DNA of 64,000 nt from Aliidiomarina sanyensis (lineage in GTDB: Bacteria; Pseudomonadota; Gammaproteobacteria; Enterobacterales; Alteromonadaceae). Under the pieces are notes generated by a model. That model had not been told where the DNA came from and made no database searches. It worked only from the letters and a program-made list of their open reading frames with translations. A program made the position numbers and the translations under genes. The DNA lies in the NCBI RefSeq assembly GCF_003987175.1, contig NZ_PIPM01000005.1, positions 62,001-126,000 on the forward strand, written 5' to 3'. Positions 26,178-40,810 of this stretch are shown one piece after another. The stretch's first letter is position 1. Each line of letters begins with the position of its first letter.

Positions 26178-27413
26178 GTGATCACAAAAAATGACGACGA
26201 CAACATGATTGTAAGCCTCGATGTCGGGACCAATAAGGTCACGGCACTGATTGCTGAAGTACAACCGGAAGGTGATCTCAACATTATTGGGGTCGGTGTC
26301 ACGGCTGCACGGGGAATGGATAAGGGCGGCGTCAACGATTTGAATCTCGTGGTTCAGTCGATCCAACGGGCAATCAATGAAGCCGAGTTGATGGCGGATT
26401 GTCGTGCCTCTTCGGTGTATTTGAATATCTCAGGGCGCCATATCTCCTGTCAGAATGAAAATGGCATGGTCCCTATCAACGATACCGAAGTGACGCAAGA
26501 TGACGTGGATAGTGTGATTCATGCGGCGAAATCTGTTCCTATTGCGCAGGAGCGCCGCATTCTCCACGTGCTCCCGCAAGAGTTTGTGATTGACTCCCAA
26601 GAGAGCATTAAGAGTCCGGTCGGGATGTCTGGTGTTCGGATGGAAGCACGGGTTCACATGATTACCTGTGCCAATGATATGGCTCGCAATATTGTGAAAG
26701 CAGTCGAGCGCTGTGATTTAAAAGTCGAGAGTCTTGTGTTCTCGGCGTTGGCTTCGAGTCATGCGGCGTTGACGGATGACGAGAAAGAGCTTGGCGTGGC
26801 CCTTGTTGATATGGGAGCCGGCACCATCGATATCAGCTTGTTCTCCGGGGGGGTGTTACGCCACACCGCAGTCATTCCGGTGGCAGGCAACCAAGTTACG
26901 AATGACATTGCGAAGATCTTTCGAACGCCATTAAGTCATGCAGAAGAAATCAAGGTGCAATATGCGTGTGCATTGCGCCAAATGGTGAGTATGGAAGACA
27001 ACATTGAAGTGCCATCGGTGGGCGGACGTCCGTCCCGAACGATGTCACGCCACACCCTCGCAGAGGTTGTGGAACCCCGCTATCAAGAGCTGTTTGAGCT
27101 GGTGCGGGATGAAATCTACGGCAGTGGGCTCGAGGAGCAAATTGCTGCAGGAGTCGTGCTGACAGGTGGAACGGCAAAGATGGAAGGTGCAGTGGAGTTT
27201 GCTGAAGAAATCTTCCAAATGCCGGTCAGACTCGGCGCGCCCATTGGGATTCAGGGATTAAGTGACTATGTCGCGGACCCTGTGTATTCAACGGGTGTTG
27301 GACTGTTGAAATTCGGTCAAATTGAACTCGCAGAGCAACAAAAAGAGAAACAACGGAGTCAGCGACCGCATTGGTTGCAACGAATCCAAAGTTGGTTCCG
27401 CGGAGAATTTTGA
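26178..27413 (+). CDS. ftsA: Cell division protein FtsA
   Basis: This 411-residue actin-like ATPase tethers FtsZ to the membrane. It has phosphate-binding motifs SLDVGTNKVTAL near the N-terminus and VDMGAGTIDISLFSGG in the middle, the 1C domain in between, and a C-terminal amphipathic membrane-targeting helix (WLQRIQSWFRGEF). I accept a GTG start at 26178, since the alignment with E. coli FtsA covers the residues between it and the first internal ATG at 26205. The upstream ribosome-binding sequence is weak. The gap to ftsQ is 42 bases. Confidence 0.95.
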   Translation: MITKNDDDNMIVSLDVGTNKVTALIAEVQPEGDLNIIGVGVTAARGMDKGGVNDLNLVVQSIQRAINEAELMADCRASSVYLNISGRHISCQNENGMVPINDTEVTQDDVDSVIHAAKSVPIAQERRILHVLPQEFVIDSQESIKSPVGMSGVRMEARVHMITCANDMARNIVKAVERCDLKVESLVFSALASSHAALTDDEKELGVALVDMGAGTIDISLFSGGVLRHTAVIPVAGNQVTNDIAKIFRTPLSHAEEIKVQYACALRQMVSMEDNIEVPSVGGRPSRTMSRHTLAEVVEPRYQELFELVRDEIYGSGLEEQIAAGVVLTGGTAKMEGAVEFAEEIFQMPVRLGAPIGIQGLSDYVADPVYSTGVGLLKFGQIELAEQQKEKQRSQRPHWLQRIQSWFRGEF

Positions 27414-35531: not shown

Positions 35532-36140
35532 TCATTGGGACTTCGCAAAGTGCAGATATTTTTCGTGTAGTTGCGATACGGTTTCGGCAAGTTGCGTGAT
35601 GGGGAGCGTATTGTCGATCACATCGTCCGCCCGTGCGAGCCGTTCGGTCCGGGAGATTTGCGCTGCAATAATTGCTGCGACCTGATTTGCGTCCACACCA
35701 TCGCGCGCTTGCGTTCGTGCGATTTGCTCTGATTCCGGAACATCCACCACCAAAACACGTTGGCAGAGGGTATCCAATTTATTCTCAAAAAGCAGAGGAG
35801 CAGAGAGAATCACATAACTGGACTTTGCCCGTTCAAGCGCGGCGAGCAGTTGGTCTCGAATCACCGGGTGCATAAGCGCGTTGAGTTTTGTTTTAGCATT
35901 TTCATCGCTAAAAATAAGCGCTCTTAATGCAGCACGATCGAGCTCTCCGTTCGACTTGATCATGCTATTGCCAAATTCCGCTTGGATATCCTTCAATAGC
36001 GGACTGCCCGGGGCCACAACCGAACGGGCTATGAGGTCGGCATCGACTACTTCAATGCCTAAACGAAGGAACTGATTGGTGACGGTTGTTTTCCCCGCTC
36101 CGATACCACCGGTCACGCCAACAATGTAGGGTTGCTTCAC
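35532..36140 (-). CDS. coaE: Dephospho-CoA kinase
   Basis: This 202-residue P-loop kinase performs the last step of coenzyme A synthesis. The N-terminus reads YIVGVTGGIGAGKTTVTN, with the Walker A loop, followed by VVDADLIARSVVAPGSP. I prefer a GTG start at 36140, which gives a GTGA overlap with the end of pilD and has TGGAG 9 bases upstream. A longer GTG start at 36161 is possible but adds residues not usual for the family. Confidence 0.93.
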   Translation of the reverse strand: MKQPYIVGVTGGIGAGKTTVTNQFLRLGIEVVDADLIARSVVAPGSPLLKDIQAEFGNSMIKSNGELDRAALRALIFSDENAKTKLNALMHPVIRDQLLAALERAKSSYVILSAPLLFENKLDTLCQRVLVVDVPESEQIARTQARDGVDANQVAAIIAAQISRTERLARADDVIDNTLPITQLAETVSQLHEKYLHFAKSQ

Positions 36141-36991
36141 AGGTAAAGGCTCCAGTACCACTGATAAATGGCTTCACCAAAGAATAAGGCGATGCCACCT
36201 GCTACGGCAAGAAAGGGGCCAAATGGCATTGGACTTCCGGATGCATGCCGTTTCCTTAGAATCATCAAGATCCCATAGGCTGCGCCGACAAGTGAGCTCA
36301 ATAGGATGATTAATGGTAGAAATTGCCAACCTAACCATGCCCCCAAGGCTGCCAAGAGCTTGAAGTCGCCATACCCCATCCCTTCCTTTTTGGTGAGTAA
36401 GAGGAATAACCAGTACACGGACCAGAGAAAAAGATAACCGGCGGCTGCACCGATAATCGCATCGGTCGGGCTGACTGGAAGCACTTGGATACTGAGCAGC
36501 AGCGCAGCCCAGATCAAGGGTAGGGTAAGCTGATCAGGAAGGAGCATATGTTCTGCATCAATCAGTGTCAGGAGTAGCAACACATACAGAAATGCCCAAT
36601 AAGCGAGCGCTTCGATCGAGATCCCAAACGTCAGCACACATGCGACGGCCAGCAAACCTGTCAGACATTCGGTGACGGGGTATCGCACACTAATGCGCGC
36701 GCCACAATGACGACACTTGCCGCGAAGCGCGAGAAAACTGAGCACAGGAAGGTTGTCATACCAACGAATCGACGCAGAACACTGTGGGCACTGAGAGGCC
36801 GGGTAGGCAAGATTAAACTGAGCCTCATCCTGTGACGCTTGCCCTTGCAGAGCGGCACAATCAATACGCCATTGACGTTGAAGCATTTTGGGAAGCCGGG
36901 CGACGACCACATTCCCAAAACTGCCAAAAATAAGCCCCAAGAGCAGCGCAAAAATCCATGCGAGATGGGGGTGCTGTTGAAGAAGTTCCAT
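36137..36991 (-). CDS. pilD: Prepilin peptidase / N-methyltransferase PilD
   Basis: This 284-residue polytopic enzyme cleaves type IV prepilin leaders and methylates the new N-terminus. The cytoplasmic loop has the two CxxC zinc pairs (CPQC, CRHC). The aspartate protease motifs are in the DAEHMLLPDQLT region and in GYGDFKLL (GxGD). I chose ATG 36991, with GAGG upstream. The next upstream in-frame start is a TTG at 37027. It is followed by coaE with a 4-base overlap and preceded by pilC across a 110-base gap. Confidence 0.95.
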   Translation of the reverse strand: MELLQQHPHLAWIFALLLGLIFGSFGNVVVARLPKMLQRQWRIDCAALQGQASQDEAQFNLAYPASQCPQCSASIRWYDNLPVLSFLALRGKCRHCGARISVRYPVTECLTGLLAVACVLTFGISIEALAYWAFLYVLLLLTLIDAEHMLLPDQLTLPLIWAALLLSIQVLPVSPTDAIIGAAAGYLFLWSVYWLFLLLTKKEGMGYGDFKLLAALGAWLGWQFLPLIILLSSLVGAAYGILMILRKRHASGSPMPFGPFLAVAGGIALFFGEAIYQWYWSLYL

Positions 36992-37101: not shown

Positions 37102-38295
37102 TTAACCAAGGGCTTGCCCCAGTTGAAACAATGGCAGGTAGAGCGAAAGTAATACCACCAGTGTAATGGCACTGACGCCAATAAGCACCCCCGTCGGTAA
37201 GAAACTTAATCGTTGTTGACGTTTTGCGTGTAATGATTGGTGCAGCTGCTGGGTTACAAAGGCGAGTTGATTCGGCAGCCGACCACTTTCCTCGCCAATT
37301 CGGATTGCCTGAATGAGCTCAGGAGGAAGCGCTTGGTGTCGCTGGGTCAGGGTGAACGTCTGACCTTGCTTCAATTGATCAGCCGTGCGAGACCAATGTG
37401 TGCGCCACACAGCACTGGCACTAAATGTCGCCGTATATGTGCAAGCCTGTTGCAGCGGAACGTGACTTTTTAAGGCAAGTAGGAGCATTTGCAAGTCGCG
37501 GAGTAGGTGTGTCGTACGCCAATTGGGGCCAACCCAAGGAATTCGGTAAAGACGTTGATTGATGCGCCGTTGCTGCAACCAGTGGTCCCAATGTCCCCGA
37601 ATCCAAAACAAAGTGAGAAGGCTGAGCCCAGCACTTATCAGAATGCCCTGCAAAACGCGAATGTCGTTGAGCGCCATAACCCACTGGGTGAGCGCCGGTA
37701 ATGGAGTATTTAGTTGCGAAAAGACGTCTGCAAATCGAGGCAGTAAGAATGCAATCATGCCTACCAGCATAAGCACCGCCATACTGAACACGGTGATTGG
37801 ATAGCGCAGTGCAGCCTGCACGGCCTCGCGTTCCTCATGCTGATGAGTCATGGTGGTATACACATGCGTGAGTACTTCAGGAAGCCGTCCTGTTTGCTCG
37901 CCGATCCCGACCCAAACACTGAGCGTCGGTGGAAACGTGGATTGATGTCGTAATGCGTGCTCCAGCGTGTCGCCCTGAGCAAGTTGCTTTTGAATATGTG
38001 AGGTGGCATTCGCCATCGCCTGATCAGTGCTGGATTGATGGAGATAGCCCCATGCACCGTGTTGGTCAATGCCCGCTTCGAGCAATTCCTTCCAGCGATG
38101 CAAAAACGTCAAAATCCGCCGCATTCGATGCCGTTTTGAGCGGGATTCGTTGGGTAACCGTGTAAGGCGTCGCACAATCAGCTGGTGACGGATAAGGTGT
38201 TGTTTCGCGCGGTTCAGGCTCGGTGCTTTACATAGCCCATTCGTCGGCCCGTCGCGAGGGCATATCGCTTCCCACTGAAACCAGAATTGTTTCAT
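37102..38295 (-). CDS. pilC: Type IV pilus assembly membrane protein PilC (GspF family)
   Basis: This 397-residue inner membrane platform protein has two GspF-type repeats (about 65-190 and 270-390), each with a cytoplasmic helical domain followed by membrane helices, for example AVLMLVGMIAFLLPRFADVF and FLPTGVLIGVSAITLVVLLSLY. It should couple the PilB ATPase to pilin polymerisation. It starts inside the pilB stop (ATGA). Length is normal for the family. Confidence 0.92.
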   Translation of the reverse strand: MKQFWFQWEAICPRDGPTNGLCKAPSLNRAKQHLIRHQLIVRRLTRLPNESRSKRHRMRRILTFLHRWKELLEAGIDQHGAWGYLHQSSTDQAMANATSHIQKQLAQGDTLEHALRHQSTFPPTLSVWVGIGEQTGRLPEVLTHVYTTMTHQHEEREAVQAALRYPITVFSMAVLMLVGMIAFLLPRFADVFSQLNTPLPALTQWVMALNDIRVLQGILISAGLSLLTLFWIRGHWDHWLQQRRINQRLYRIPWVGPNWRTTHLLRDLQMLLLALKSHVPLQQACTYTATFSASAVWRTHWSRTADQLKQGQTFTLTQRHQALPPELIQAIRIGEESGRLPNQLAFVTQQLHQSLHAKRQQRLSFLPTGVLIGVSAITLVVLLSLYLPLFQLGQALG

Positions 38296-39287
38296 GACCC
38301 GAGCTCAAGAACGTACTGACGCTGGGCTGTCTCTGCGGCATTCCCATAGGCCGGAACGTCTTTCCACGATTCGAGCTGAGCGGGTCCACCGAGCAGGGCT
38401 TCGGCAAATGCGCCGTCCCCCTCACACAGGGTAAATACACCTTGTCGCCGGCCCTGAATGACGTGTAAGCGTTGATTAATCAGTAGATTTAAGCACGCCG
38501 CGAGTTGGTAACGCTCAACACCCAGTTGCTGTAATCGGACGACCGCACTGAGTGGATGGCTTGCATGAAGTGTTGCTAGCACGAGATGCCCGGTTTGGGC
38601 GGCTTGGCATGCAATATGCGCGGTTTCCGCATCGCGTATTTCCCCTATCATCAGGACATCAGGGTCTTGCCGCAGCATGGCACGCAGGGCAACGGCAAAA
38701 TCCATTCCAACTGCCGTACGAATCGGGACTTGATTGATTCCCGTCAGGGCAATCTCGACCGGATCTTCTACGGTACTGATATTTAGCTTCTGGGTATCGA
38801 GGGTTTGCAGCATGGCGTAGAGTGTTCGGGTTTTTCCACTGCCCGTGGGTCCGGTGACCAGAATTAAGCCCTCACTTCGAGTAAGGTTGCTGCGAATGCG
38901 CTGAAGCTGTGGCGGCATTAGCCCCAGTGCAGTAAGCGGCAGCGCACGTTCTCCGCGGACTTGCAAACGGAGCACAATTTTCTCTCCATGCAAGGTGGCC
39001 AGGGTGTTGAGACGACAGTCGACTTCGAGGGTCGCACCGCTGACCCGCAGTCGGCCGTCCTGAGGTAGACGTCGTTCGGTGGTATCCATCCCCGCAGCCG
39101 TTTTGAGTGCGGCGATTATTCGTGTGGCCTGGGCCGGCGTGAGTCGGCTGCGCCGGATTAATTTTCCAAGCACACGTCCTCGCCAGTAAGCCCCTTCGGG
39201 AAAGACTTCCAAATGGAGGTCGGAGCATCCATCGTGTGCCGCTGAGCAAATAAAATCGACCAAATCACGGCTCAGTTGGGCTGACAT
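38292..39287 (-). CDS. pilB: Type IV pilus assembly ATPase, PilB/GspE-like, short form
   Basis: This 324-residue AAA-type secretion ATPase should power pilin assembly. The N2 domain (about 1-110, SDLHLEVFPEGAYWRGRVLG) is followed by the ATPase core with Walker A GPTGSGKT (Lys152), the STVEDPVE Asp box, the Walker B region DPDVLMIGEIRDAETA and the ATLHAS His box. Full PilB proteins have about 560 residues with an N1 domain, and usually a tetracysteine zinc site near the C-terminus. Both are absent here, so by length it is closer to PilT. Its neighbours pilA, pilC and pilD argue for an assembly role. The start at 39287 has a GGGAGG 8 bases upstream. Confidence 0.88.
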   Translation of the reverse strand: MSAQLSRDLVDFICSAAHDGCSDLHLEVFPEGAYWRGRVLGKLIRRSRLTPAQATRIIAALKTAAGMDTTERRLPQDGRLRVSGATLEVDCRLNTLATLHGEKIVLRLQVRGERALPLTALGLMPPQLQRIRSNLTRSEGLILVTGPTGSGKTRTLYAMLQTLDTQKLNISTVEDPVEIALTGINQVPIRTAVGMDFAVALRAMLRQDPDVLMIGEIRDAETAHIACQAAQTGHLVLATLHASHPLSAVVRLQQLGVERYQLAACLNLLINQRLHVIQGRRQGVFTLCEGDGAFAEALLGGPAQLESWKDVPAYGNAAETAQRQYVLELGS

Positions 39288-39288
39288 A

Positions 39289-39753
39289 CTAGAGACCTCC
39301 CGCACAATGGGGAATTCGCATCGCACTATCATGTAACGCGACAAAATCGGAGCAATTCACTTGCCACTGAAGTTGTGCGGCGGAGGCAGCAGGCCGGACT
39401 TCGACAATGAGTGGCTCACCGGATCGGTCGCGCACGTCCAGTGTCGCTCGCACACTGCCCGCCGTGGTTCCCGCGCCCAATGCGGAGAGCCCAACAGGAA
39501 GAGGGCTTTCAACCGCAGGAATGCCTCGTTGACCAAAAGAAGAACAGGAAGAAAGGGTTCCTTCCATTTGCCAACATAAATTGATTGCGGTTTGCCATGG
39601 CTGTAATCCCAAGAGCGCCGTGCCCGCCCGAGCGCGCATGGTGTAATCGGTGTAAGCAGGAATTGCGATCGAACTGAGAATCGCAATGATTGCCACCACG
39701 ATCATTAACTCAACGAGATTGAATCCCCGGATTTGAGAAGCATAAGATTGCAT
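39289..39753 (-). CDS. pilA: Type IV major pilin (prepilin PilA)
   Basis: This 154-residue prepilin has a 10-residue leader ending in RG, cleavage before Phe11, Glu at mature position 5 (FNLVE) and the hydrophobic stem [18 protein letters not shown]. The globular part has two cysteine pairs (NLC...SSC and NCS...PHC) that may form disulfides, including the C-terminal D-loop. I chose ATG 39753 with GGAGGG 5 bases upstream. pilB begins one base after the stop. Confidence 0.95.

Positions 39754-39871: not shown

Positions 39872-40810
<939 letters not shown>

Follow-up and report, generated by a model that had tools for sequence, protein, structure and literature searches.

A PilB-type ATPase reduced to its N2 and catalytic domains at the pilABCD locus of Aliidiomarina, a genus in which PilQ was not detected

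The DNA considered here, referred to as the window, is a stretch of 64,000 nucleotides from Aliidiomarina sanyensis (assembly GCF_003987175.1, contig NZ_PIPM01000005.1, positions 62,001 to 126,000), and the gene under study is the pilB-like gene of a compact pilABCD locus on its reverse strand. The gene encodes an ATPase that begins almost directly at the N2 domain. An initial annotation, made from the sequence alone, had the coordinates and strand of the gene right and also its intact Walker, Asp-box and His-box motifs, and it anchored the start codon on a strong ribosome-binding sequence that is indeed present; its length of 324 residues needs correction, because the frame gives 331 residues plus a stop codon. 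The ATG sits one base past the pilA stop codon. The features of the gene are as follows.

38292..39287, reverse strand: short PilB-type assembly ATPase of 331 residues, with an N2 and an ATPase domain only, as judged from frame translation, profiles, alignments and a structure model.
39296..39301, reverse strand: ribosome-binding sequence GGGAGG, with the ATG 8 nucleotides downstream (sequence).
38829..38852, reverse strand: Walker A motif, GPTGSGKT, residues 146-153 (sequence).
38619..38687, reverse strand: Walker B motif with the catalytic glutamate, LRAMLRQDPDVLMIGEIRDAETA, residues 201-223 (sequence).
38445..38462, reverse strand: site of the tetracysteine zinc loop of outgroup PilB proteins, where the loop is absent here, residues about 276-281 (alignments).

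Profile comparisons point to an assembly-type ATPase, and the protein scores as follows against the related families: 310.9 bits for PilB (TIGR02538, positions 188-452 of 564; cut-off 675.65), 308.0 for GspE (TIGR02533, under the curated cut-off), 307.9 for HofB (NF007755, cut-off 617), 228.4 for ComGA (NF041000, cut-off 300) and 154.4 for the PilT family (TIGR01420, cut-off 319.1). The Pfam T2SSE match spans profile positions 8-277 of 370. The first 187 positions of TIGR02538 are unmatched, which bears out the proposal of the initial annotation that the N1 (GSPII) domain is absent. Its second proposal, the absence of the tetracysteine zinc site (CxxC...CxxC), holds as well: no CxxC occurs anywhere in the protein, and in alignments the loop is gone as one block with the strand that follows it retained. 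R281, in that strand, is invariant in a 23-row alignment. In EpsE the arginine of the strand after the zinc loop is reported to touch the nucleotide (PMC5061722), and R281 would, in our reading, be its equivalent.

What remains of PilB is N2 and the ATPase domain, the latter carrying all four motifs (Walker A, Asp box, Walker B, His box). Both domains are complete in the structure model (mean per-residue confidence, pLDDT, 89.8), and the closest matches by E-value in the PDB are N1-less cores of PilF and PilB, with template-modelling (TM) scores to the query of up to 0.87 and PilT behind them. Residues 311-331 are modelled with low confidence (57-67). The C-terminal tail, on which the initial annotation was silent, is divergent, being shorter and aligning poorly where a normal PilB has its final helices. 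Thus, by the defining features that were tested for and found missing, the protein is not a canonical PilB, and its locus and its place in the tree indicate a reduced descendant of PilB.

The surrounding genes, all on the same strand, are those expected of such a locus. The order pilA-pilB-pilC-pilD is the PilB arrangement, and it stands beside nadC and coaE, two flanking genes whose names are our assumption; the platform protein finds its best-scoring model in HofC.

39289..39753, reverse strand: pilA, type IV pilin of 154 residues with an N_methyl domain (profile search, synteny).
37102..38295, reverse strand: pilC, platform protein of 397 residues with two T2SSF stretches (profile search, synteny, alignment).
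36137..36991, reverse strand: pilD, prepilin peptidase of 284 residues with both A24 domains (profile search, synteny).
39872..40774, reverse strand: a gene we take to be nadC, conserved on the upstream side of the pil locus (synteny table).
35532..36161, reverse strand: a gene we take to be coaE, conserved on the downstream side of the pil locus (synteny table).

The short form of PilB is a property of the genus. In each of the 17 Aliidiomarina genomes sampled, the window genome included, the best match to the window protein is a short gene at the same locus, and the order mutT, coaE, pilD, pilC, pilB, pilA, nadC, ampD, ampE, pdhR is conserved throughout, with zapD added in eight of the 17 (the names other than pil being those we presume these genes to carry). 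Read from the longest start, the short frames encode 326-409 residues, part of the spread being due to start choice. PilB proteins from 11 outgroup loci, taken as the best-scoring PilB loci and not as a random draw, measure 501-571 residues, and two HofB-like proteins 467 and 530; the initial annotation gave about 560 for PilB and about 460 for HofB. Ten of these 11 loci have nadC and/or coaE within the fetched stretch, and the remaining one (L147; L, G and C mark loci, genomes and contigs) shows only pilA-B-C. For several other genera of the family, for example G018, G020, G021, G022, G025, G026, G029, G030 and G031, the best listed match is GspE, and their PilB loci lie outside this comparison.

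Walker A, Asp box, Walker B with its catalytic glutamate and His box are retained in 17/17 genus proteins (Walker A reading GATGSGKT in two), and the pilA, pilB and pilC frames are open in all 17 genomes. None of the 17 proteins has a CxxC in the zinc loop, and the sole CxxC, at residue 91 of L120, lies away from it. For the closest pair of genomes, G010 and G011, the ratio of nonsynonymous to synonymous substitution rates (dN/dS) is 0.02 for pilB, 0.03 for pilA, 0.10 for pilC, 0.10 for pilD and 0.02 for nadC; this is the one informative pair of four, since in the other three the synonymous divergence (dS) of the pil genes is either saturated or at least 1.4. Between G010 and G011, then, pilB is under purifying selection. 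These observations favour the minimal assembly motor offered as one possibility in the initial annotation.

In a tree of 46 proteins the 17 short PilB proteins form a single clade (support 100/99), whose sister is the protein of the same locus in Idiomarina aquatica (94/86), followed by a protein of a Legionellales metagenome-assembled genome, L020 (92/89). All of these lie within a 39-row branch (97/90) that also holds PilB, HofB and a pair of Tumebacillus proteins, with PilT, GspE and MshE outside it, so a placement with the PilT retraction motors, which the initial annotation had named as a refuting outcome, did not emerge. Several deep forks are open, and the exact places of L084 (I. aquatica) and L020 are unsure, both being long branches and L084 having an odd composition; elsewhere in the tree the long branches of Tad, PilT and type IVb come together. 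The Tumebacillus pair forms a branch separate from the short PilB, although the fork that excludes it is open (88/91) and the pair itself falls under the ComGA cut-off.

An N1 domain encoded elsewhere was sought with a profile built from ten PilB N1 domains and run in six frames over the loci and over whole genomes. No N1 was found in any frame of the genus pil loci. On this search an N1 in another upstream frame, which the initial annotation had named as a refuting outcome, was rejected, and so was a truncation by frameshift, against which that annotation had argued from the intact motifs and start. The profile recovers N1 at all ten training loci and at L140, L014 and L219, weakly at L217 and L076, and it gives a match at E 5e-45 or better in each of seven outgroup genomes outside the profile. 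It is blind to L084, L218 and the Tumebacillus pair, and equally to two other ATPases, GspE (L148) and the type IVb-type one (L149), so a degenerate or distant N1 would escape it.

Across the whole window genome the N1 profile has no match. The suggestion that this organism may carry another, full PilB elsewhere was accordingly rejected: of its four other T2SSE proteins, two pass their cut-offs, as GspE and as PilT (a single PilT, at 486.7 bits), and two are labelled, from best matches under the cut-off and from their neighbours, as ATPases of the type IVb and TadA types. Among the genus, 13 of 17 genomes have a single N1 match, in a frame of 594-627 residues that also bears an ATPase match, and G000, G005, G010 and G011 have none at E up to 10. 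The frame of G013 is, on its sequence, identified as MshE, because it has an MshEN domain and a motif for cyclic di-GMP (c-di-GMP), with a secretin that passes the MshL cut-off nearby; those of the other 12 genomes are probably MshE too, by size and place. The MshEN family PF05157 has no match in the window genome, where it misses GspE as well, and it does find the G013 MshE. As a separate observation, the MSHA pilus seems to have been lost in G000, G005, G010 and G011, which lack both an MshL-sized secretin and an MshE N1 and which retain pilABCD.

The second absence, which lies outside the window, is that of PilQ. Tested against the TIGR02515 cut-off in 58 genomes, PilQ passes in 38: in none of the 17 genus members, in all 17 genomes of other genera of the family, and in 21 of the 24 other genomes of the order. 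The three order genomes where it does not pass comprise two that lack any PilB-type match and one with a weak match only. The window genome does encode three other secretins: a GspD-sized one adjoining gspE; a type IVb-type one, which scores best with the PilN-type IVB secretin family (TIGR02520, 212.4 bits, cut-off 287.65); and a Tad-type one adjoining the TadA-type ATPase (310.5 bits, under cut-off). Secretins of these three sizes each occur in 17/17 genus genomes, none near aroK, and an MshL-sized secretin is missing in four (G000, G005, G010, G011); the classes of the genus secretins rest on frame size and score, with a family check for the G000 secretins and the G013 MshL. Two further pilus clusters were noted in the window genome, a Tad-type one (L150:3231-11792, C46) and a type IVb-type one (L149:7074-15192, C47) comprising a secretin, a 556-residue ATPase frame, a 350-residue platform-like protein and pilin-like proteins, as well as members of 385 and 176 residues that have no Pfam match.

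Between aroK and mrcA, the place of pilMNOPQ, the genus has a reduced interval of 1.3-2.3 kb (16 of 17 genomes, those with both flanks available). In the outgroup, read from the longest starts, PilM has 352-383 residues and PilQ 553-714 residues at nine of 13 loci, and PilM has 277-291 and PilQ 413-462 residues in G054, G040, G037 and G050. The interval of the window genome holds three frames.

L152:8641-10659 (window genome, C45): aroK-mrcA interval with three frames in the place of pilMNOPQ, none with a family match.
L152:9892-10659: candidate mini-PilM of 256 residues, first frame behind mrcA.

Searched against Pfam and NCBIfam, the 256-residue protein has no match, PilM included. Its structure model (pLDDT 72) returns PilM in Foldseek rows 1-7, at low TM scores (0.35-0.38 of the query), and the VIA comparison gives PilM Z values of 11.4, 11.2 and 11.2 over 178-190 aligned residues (190 at Z 11.4) at a root-mean-square deviation of 4.0-5.1, the best unrelated row having 8.4. 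From the model, the protein is predicted to be a mini-PilM with the actin-like PilM fold. Profile comparison of the interval frames gives probabilities of 66 for PilM (E 5e-5), 41 for PilN (E 3e-4), 8 for PilO and below 1 for PilP, where the PilO-like row of L202 came from an overlapping wrong frame; the labels pilN and pilO are thus putative and positional in the main, and PilO-like is so by position only. In G005 and G012, where frames are fused, in G009, which has a single frame, and for the final frame of each of G003, G014 and G015, no clear profile match was obtained. In G012 (L205:8735-9904) and G005 (L209:8431-9564) the M-like and N-like frames look fused by position, with 389 and 377 residues, and in G009 (L208:7756-8823) a lone frame of 355 residues lies between aroK and mrcA. 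The only Pfam match to PilM in the window genome is at window positions 26718-26960, in a frame that we take from its position to be FtsA.

Reductions of a related kind are seen in other lineages. I. aquatica (L084:5668-8050) has an intermediate PilB of 449 residues, whose eroded N-terminus, about 90 residues ahead of N2, draws no match from the N1 profile and whose zinc motif has only four residues between the cysteine pairs, and a PilC of 348 residues without the N-terminal domain. The Legionellales genome (L020:5538-9549) has a locus of pilin, PilB, PilC and PilD with a coaE-like frame behind it, in which PilB has 326 residues and no cysteine pairs and PilC has 341 residues and no N-terminal domain; it is possibly a second case of the same reduction, on a long branch. 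Both loci include a pilin and a prepilin peptidase. The PilC N-terminal domain is retained in the six genus members aligned, and these differing losses indicate that motor and platform have been trimmed differently in each lineage. A short frame of the distant relative G054 looked like a second case but was discounted, since it retains the cysteine pairs and starts inside N2 and is likely a broken or misread frame. Also observed were a HofB-like protein of 467 residues with one CxxC rather than two (G040, L217:5990-7393) and two Tumebacillus PilB-type ATPases without N1 and CxxC (L041:5905-6996 and L073:5989-7050), on which the PilB and GspE models outscore ComGA; the latter model reaches 241.8 and 242.6 of the 300 bits of its cut-off.

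How such a motor might work is suggested by comparison with known systems. The window protein is like PilB/PilF (TIGR02538) in locus position, in N2 and ATPase sequence, in motifs and in its neighbours pilA, pilC and pilD, and unlike it in having no N1 and no zinc loop, a divergent tail and a score far under the cut-off. In build it recalls ComGA, which is described as lacking N1 (PMC6370729) and as the extension ATPase of the Com pilus, a machine made by eight core parts only (PMC10790768). The Tumebacillus pair, taken here as ComGA though under the ComGA cut-off, has the same build without N1 and CxxC. Com pili differ in being monoderm structures, whereas the window genome has GspD and PilT. 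Among the papers listed by searches of the open-licence PMC literature, no title or abstract opening describes an N1-less PilB in Idiomarinaceae or a PilQ-less type IVa pilus of a diderm.

The reading we favour, to which we give somewhat better than an even chance, is that the short PilB is the extension ATPase of a PilQ-less type IVa pilus locus, cut back in an ancestor of the genus to N2 and the RecA-like ATPase domain and maintained by selection as a minimal motor of ComGA-like build, perhaps for DNA uptake. We infer that the short PilB would still drive pilus extension: the core hexamer would itself turn PilC by its cytoplasmic domains, in the manner proposed for ComGA and ComGB, and coupling through N1 and PilM would be slight or absent. 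The hexamer would assemble a short pilus or pseudopilus out of PilA, and this would either stay periplasmic or pass the outer membrane by way of a secretin that belongs to another system. That a core hexamer could drive PilC directly is made possible by reports that N1 is dispensable for the ATPase activity of PilF (PMC6145873) and that PilMN binds PilF even without any GSPII domain (PMC6325625), together with the ComGA and Com pilus literature. Loss of the secretin has been described in this superfamily for monoderms, and secretin co-option for other systems (PMC6668835). As to function, DNA uptake is the preferred role, weakly suggested by the retention of ComEC in 17/17 genus genomes.

Several points weigh against this reading. 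A control search finds ComEC in Escherichia coli also. Deletion of the zinc domain is reported to abolish the function of EpsE in Vibrio cholerae (PMC5061722), and removal of N1 to disturb PilF hexamers and affect transformation and twitching (PMC6145873); a core-only PilB might therefore be weak. A published pilQ mutant formed filaments only if pilT was also removed, and these were trapped in the periplasm (PMC10191384), which implies that a PilQ-less pilus can form in the periplasm, at least without PilT, and the window genome retains pilT. Little movement of secretins between Tad, type II secretion and type IVa pilus systems is reported (PMC6668835). In addition, PilC across the genus is only 27-45% identical to the window PilC and diverges faster than its neighbours, and the PilMNO-like genes are faster still, with dN/dS of 0.24-0.31 between G010 and G011, both of which are compatible with relaxed constraint.

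In another explanation pilABC is a degenerating relic left after the loss of PilQ and only pilD is retained, for pilin processing in other systems. The absence of PilQ over its cut-off from the whole genus, the very divergent PilMNO-like genes and the rapidly diverging PilC would all fit such decay. A relic would hardly be expected to keep pilA, pilB and pilC open, and the catalytic motifs intact, in 17/17 genomes, to show dN/dS of 0.02-0.10 for these three genes in the one unsaturated pair, or to survive in the four genomes from which the MshL-sized secretin and the N1 match have gone; we regard it as unlikely. It is quite unlikely that another protein, such as MshE, provides N1 in trans, or that PilM now contacts the ATPase core. 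The single N1 match of 13 genus genomes does lie in an MshE-type frame, a mini-PilM persists, and the binding of PilMN to PilF without any GSPII domain (PMC6325625) is in keeping with such a contact, but G000, G005, G010 and G011 keep the short PilB with neither an N1 match (E up to 10, a very divergent N1 being one the search would miss) nor an MshL-sized secretin.

Two further explanations start from resemblance to other ATPases. The domain content of PilT/PilU (TIGR01420), N2 and ATPase without N1 and zinc site, is that of the short PilB, and N1 and the zinc domain are what distinguishes assembly ATPases from PilT (PMC5061722, PMC6145873); with a dual role also raised for the N1-less ComGA (PMC6370729), the motor might retract the filament as well as extend it. 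Such bifunctionality is very unlikely, given that a separate canonical PilT is encoded elsewhere in the window genome and that the sequence, far closer to PilB than to the PilT family in bits, and the tree position are of the assembly type. Ordinary variation of the HofB type, a somewhat shorter enterobacterial-type PilB, has only the slightest chance of being the full account. HofB of E. coli and relatives is likewise shortened at the N-terminus, and in the HofB-bearing G037 and G040 the PilM and PilQ partners are shortened too; the HofB model scores on a par with that of PilB, the platform protein is best matched by HofC, the loss of one CxxC at L217 hints that zinc-site loss may have begun there also, and hofBC of E. 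coli, we presume, adjoins nadC as well. The three HofB-like outgroup proteins (467, 530 and 496 residues) nevertheless all retain an N-terminal extension, two of them with both cysteine pairs, and the HofQ-sized PilQ frames of G037, G040, G050 and G054 all pass the PilQ cut-off. The absence of PilQ and of the zinc loop together refutes HofB-type variation as a complete explanation.

The genus may possess a Com-like minimal type IVa pilus in a diderm, a further proposal that is plausible at somewhat less than even chances: a motor without N1 or zinc loop, with PilA, PilC, PilD and a mini-PilM and no secretin of its own, whose filament would be periplasmic or pass through the secretin of another system, and whose extension would proceed without the N1-PilM coupling thought to transmit force. 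A review calls the contribution of N1 in assembly ATPases poorly understood and presents the zinc site as essential (PMC11656802). Here N1, zinc loop and PilQ have been removed together in a diderm, with the motor apparently under selection, and Aliidiomarina may thus offer a natural experiment on the minimum that a pilus machine requires. In so small a system it could be asked whether PilB suffices to drive PilC, whether PilM serves in coupling or as a scaffold, and whether a filament without a secretin of its own can be useful to a diderm.

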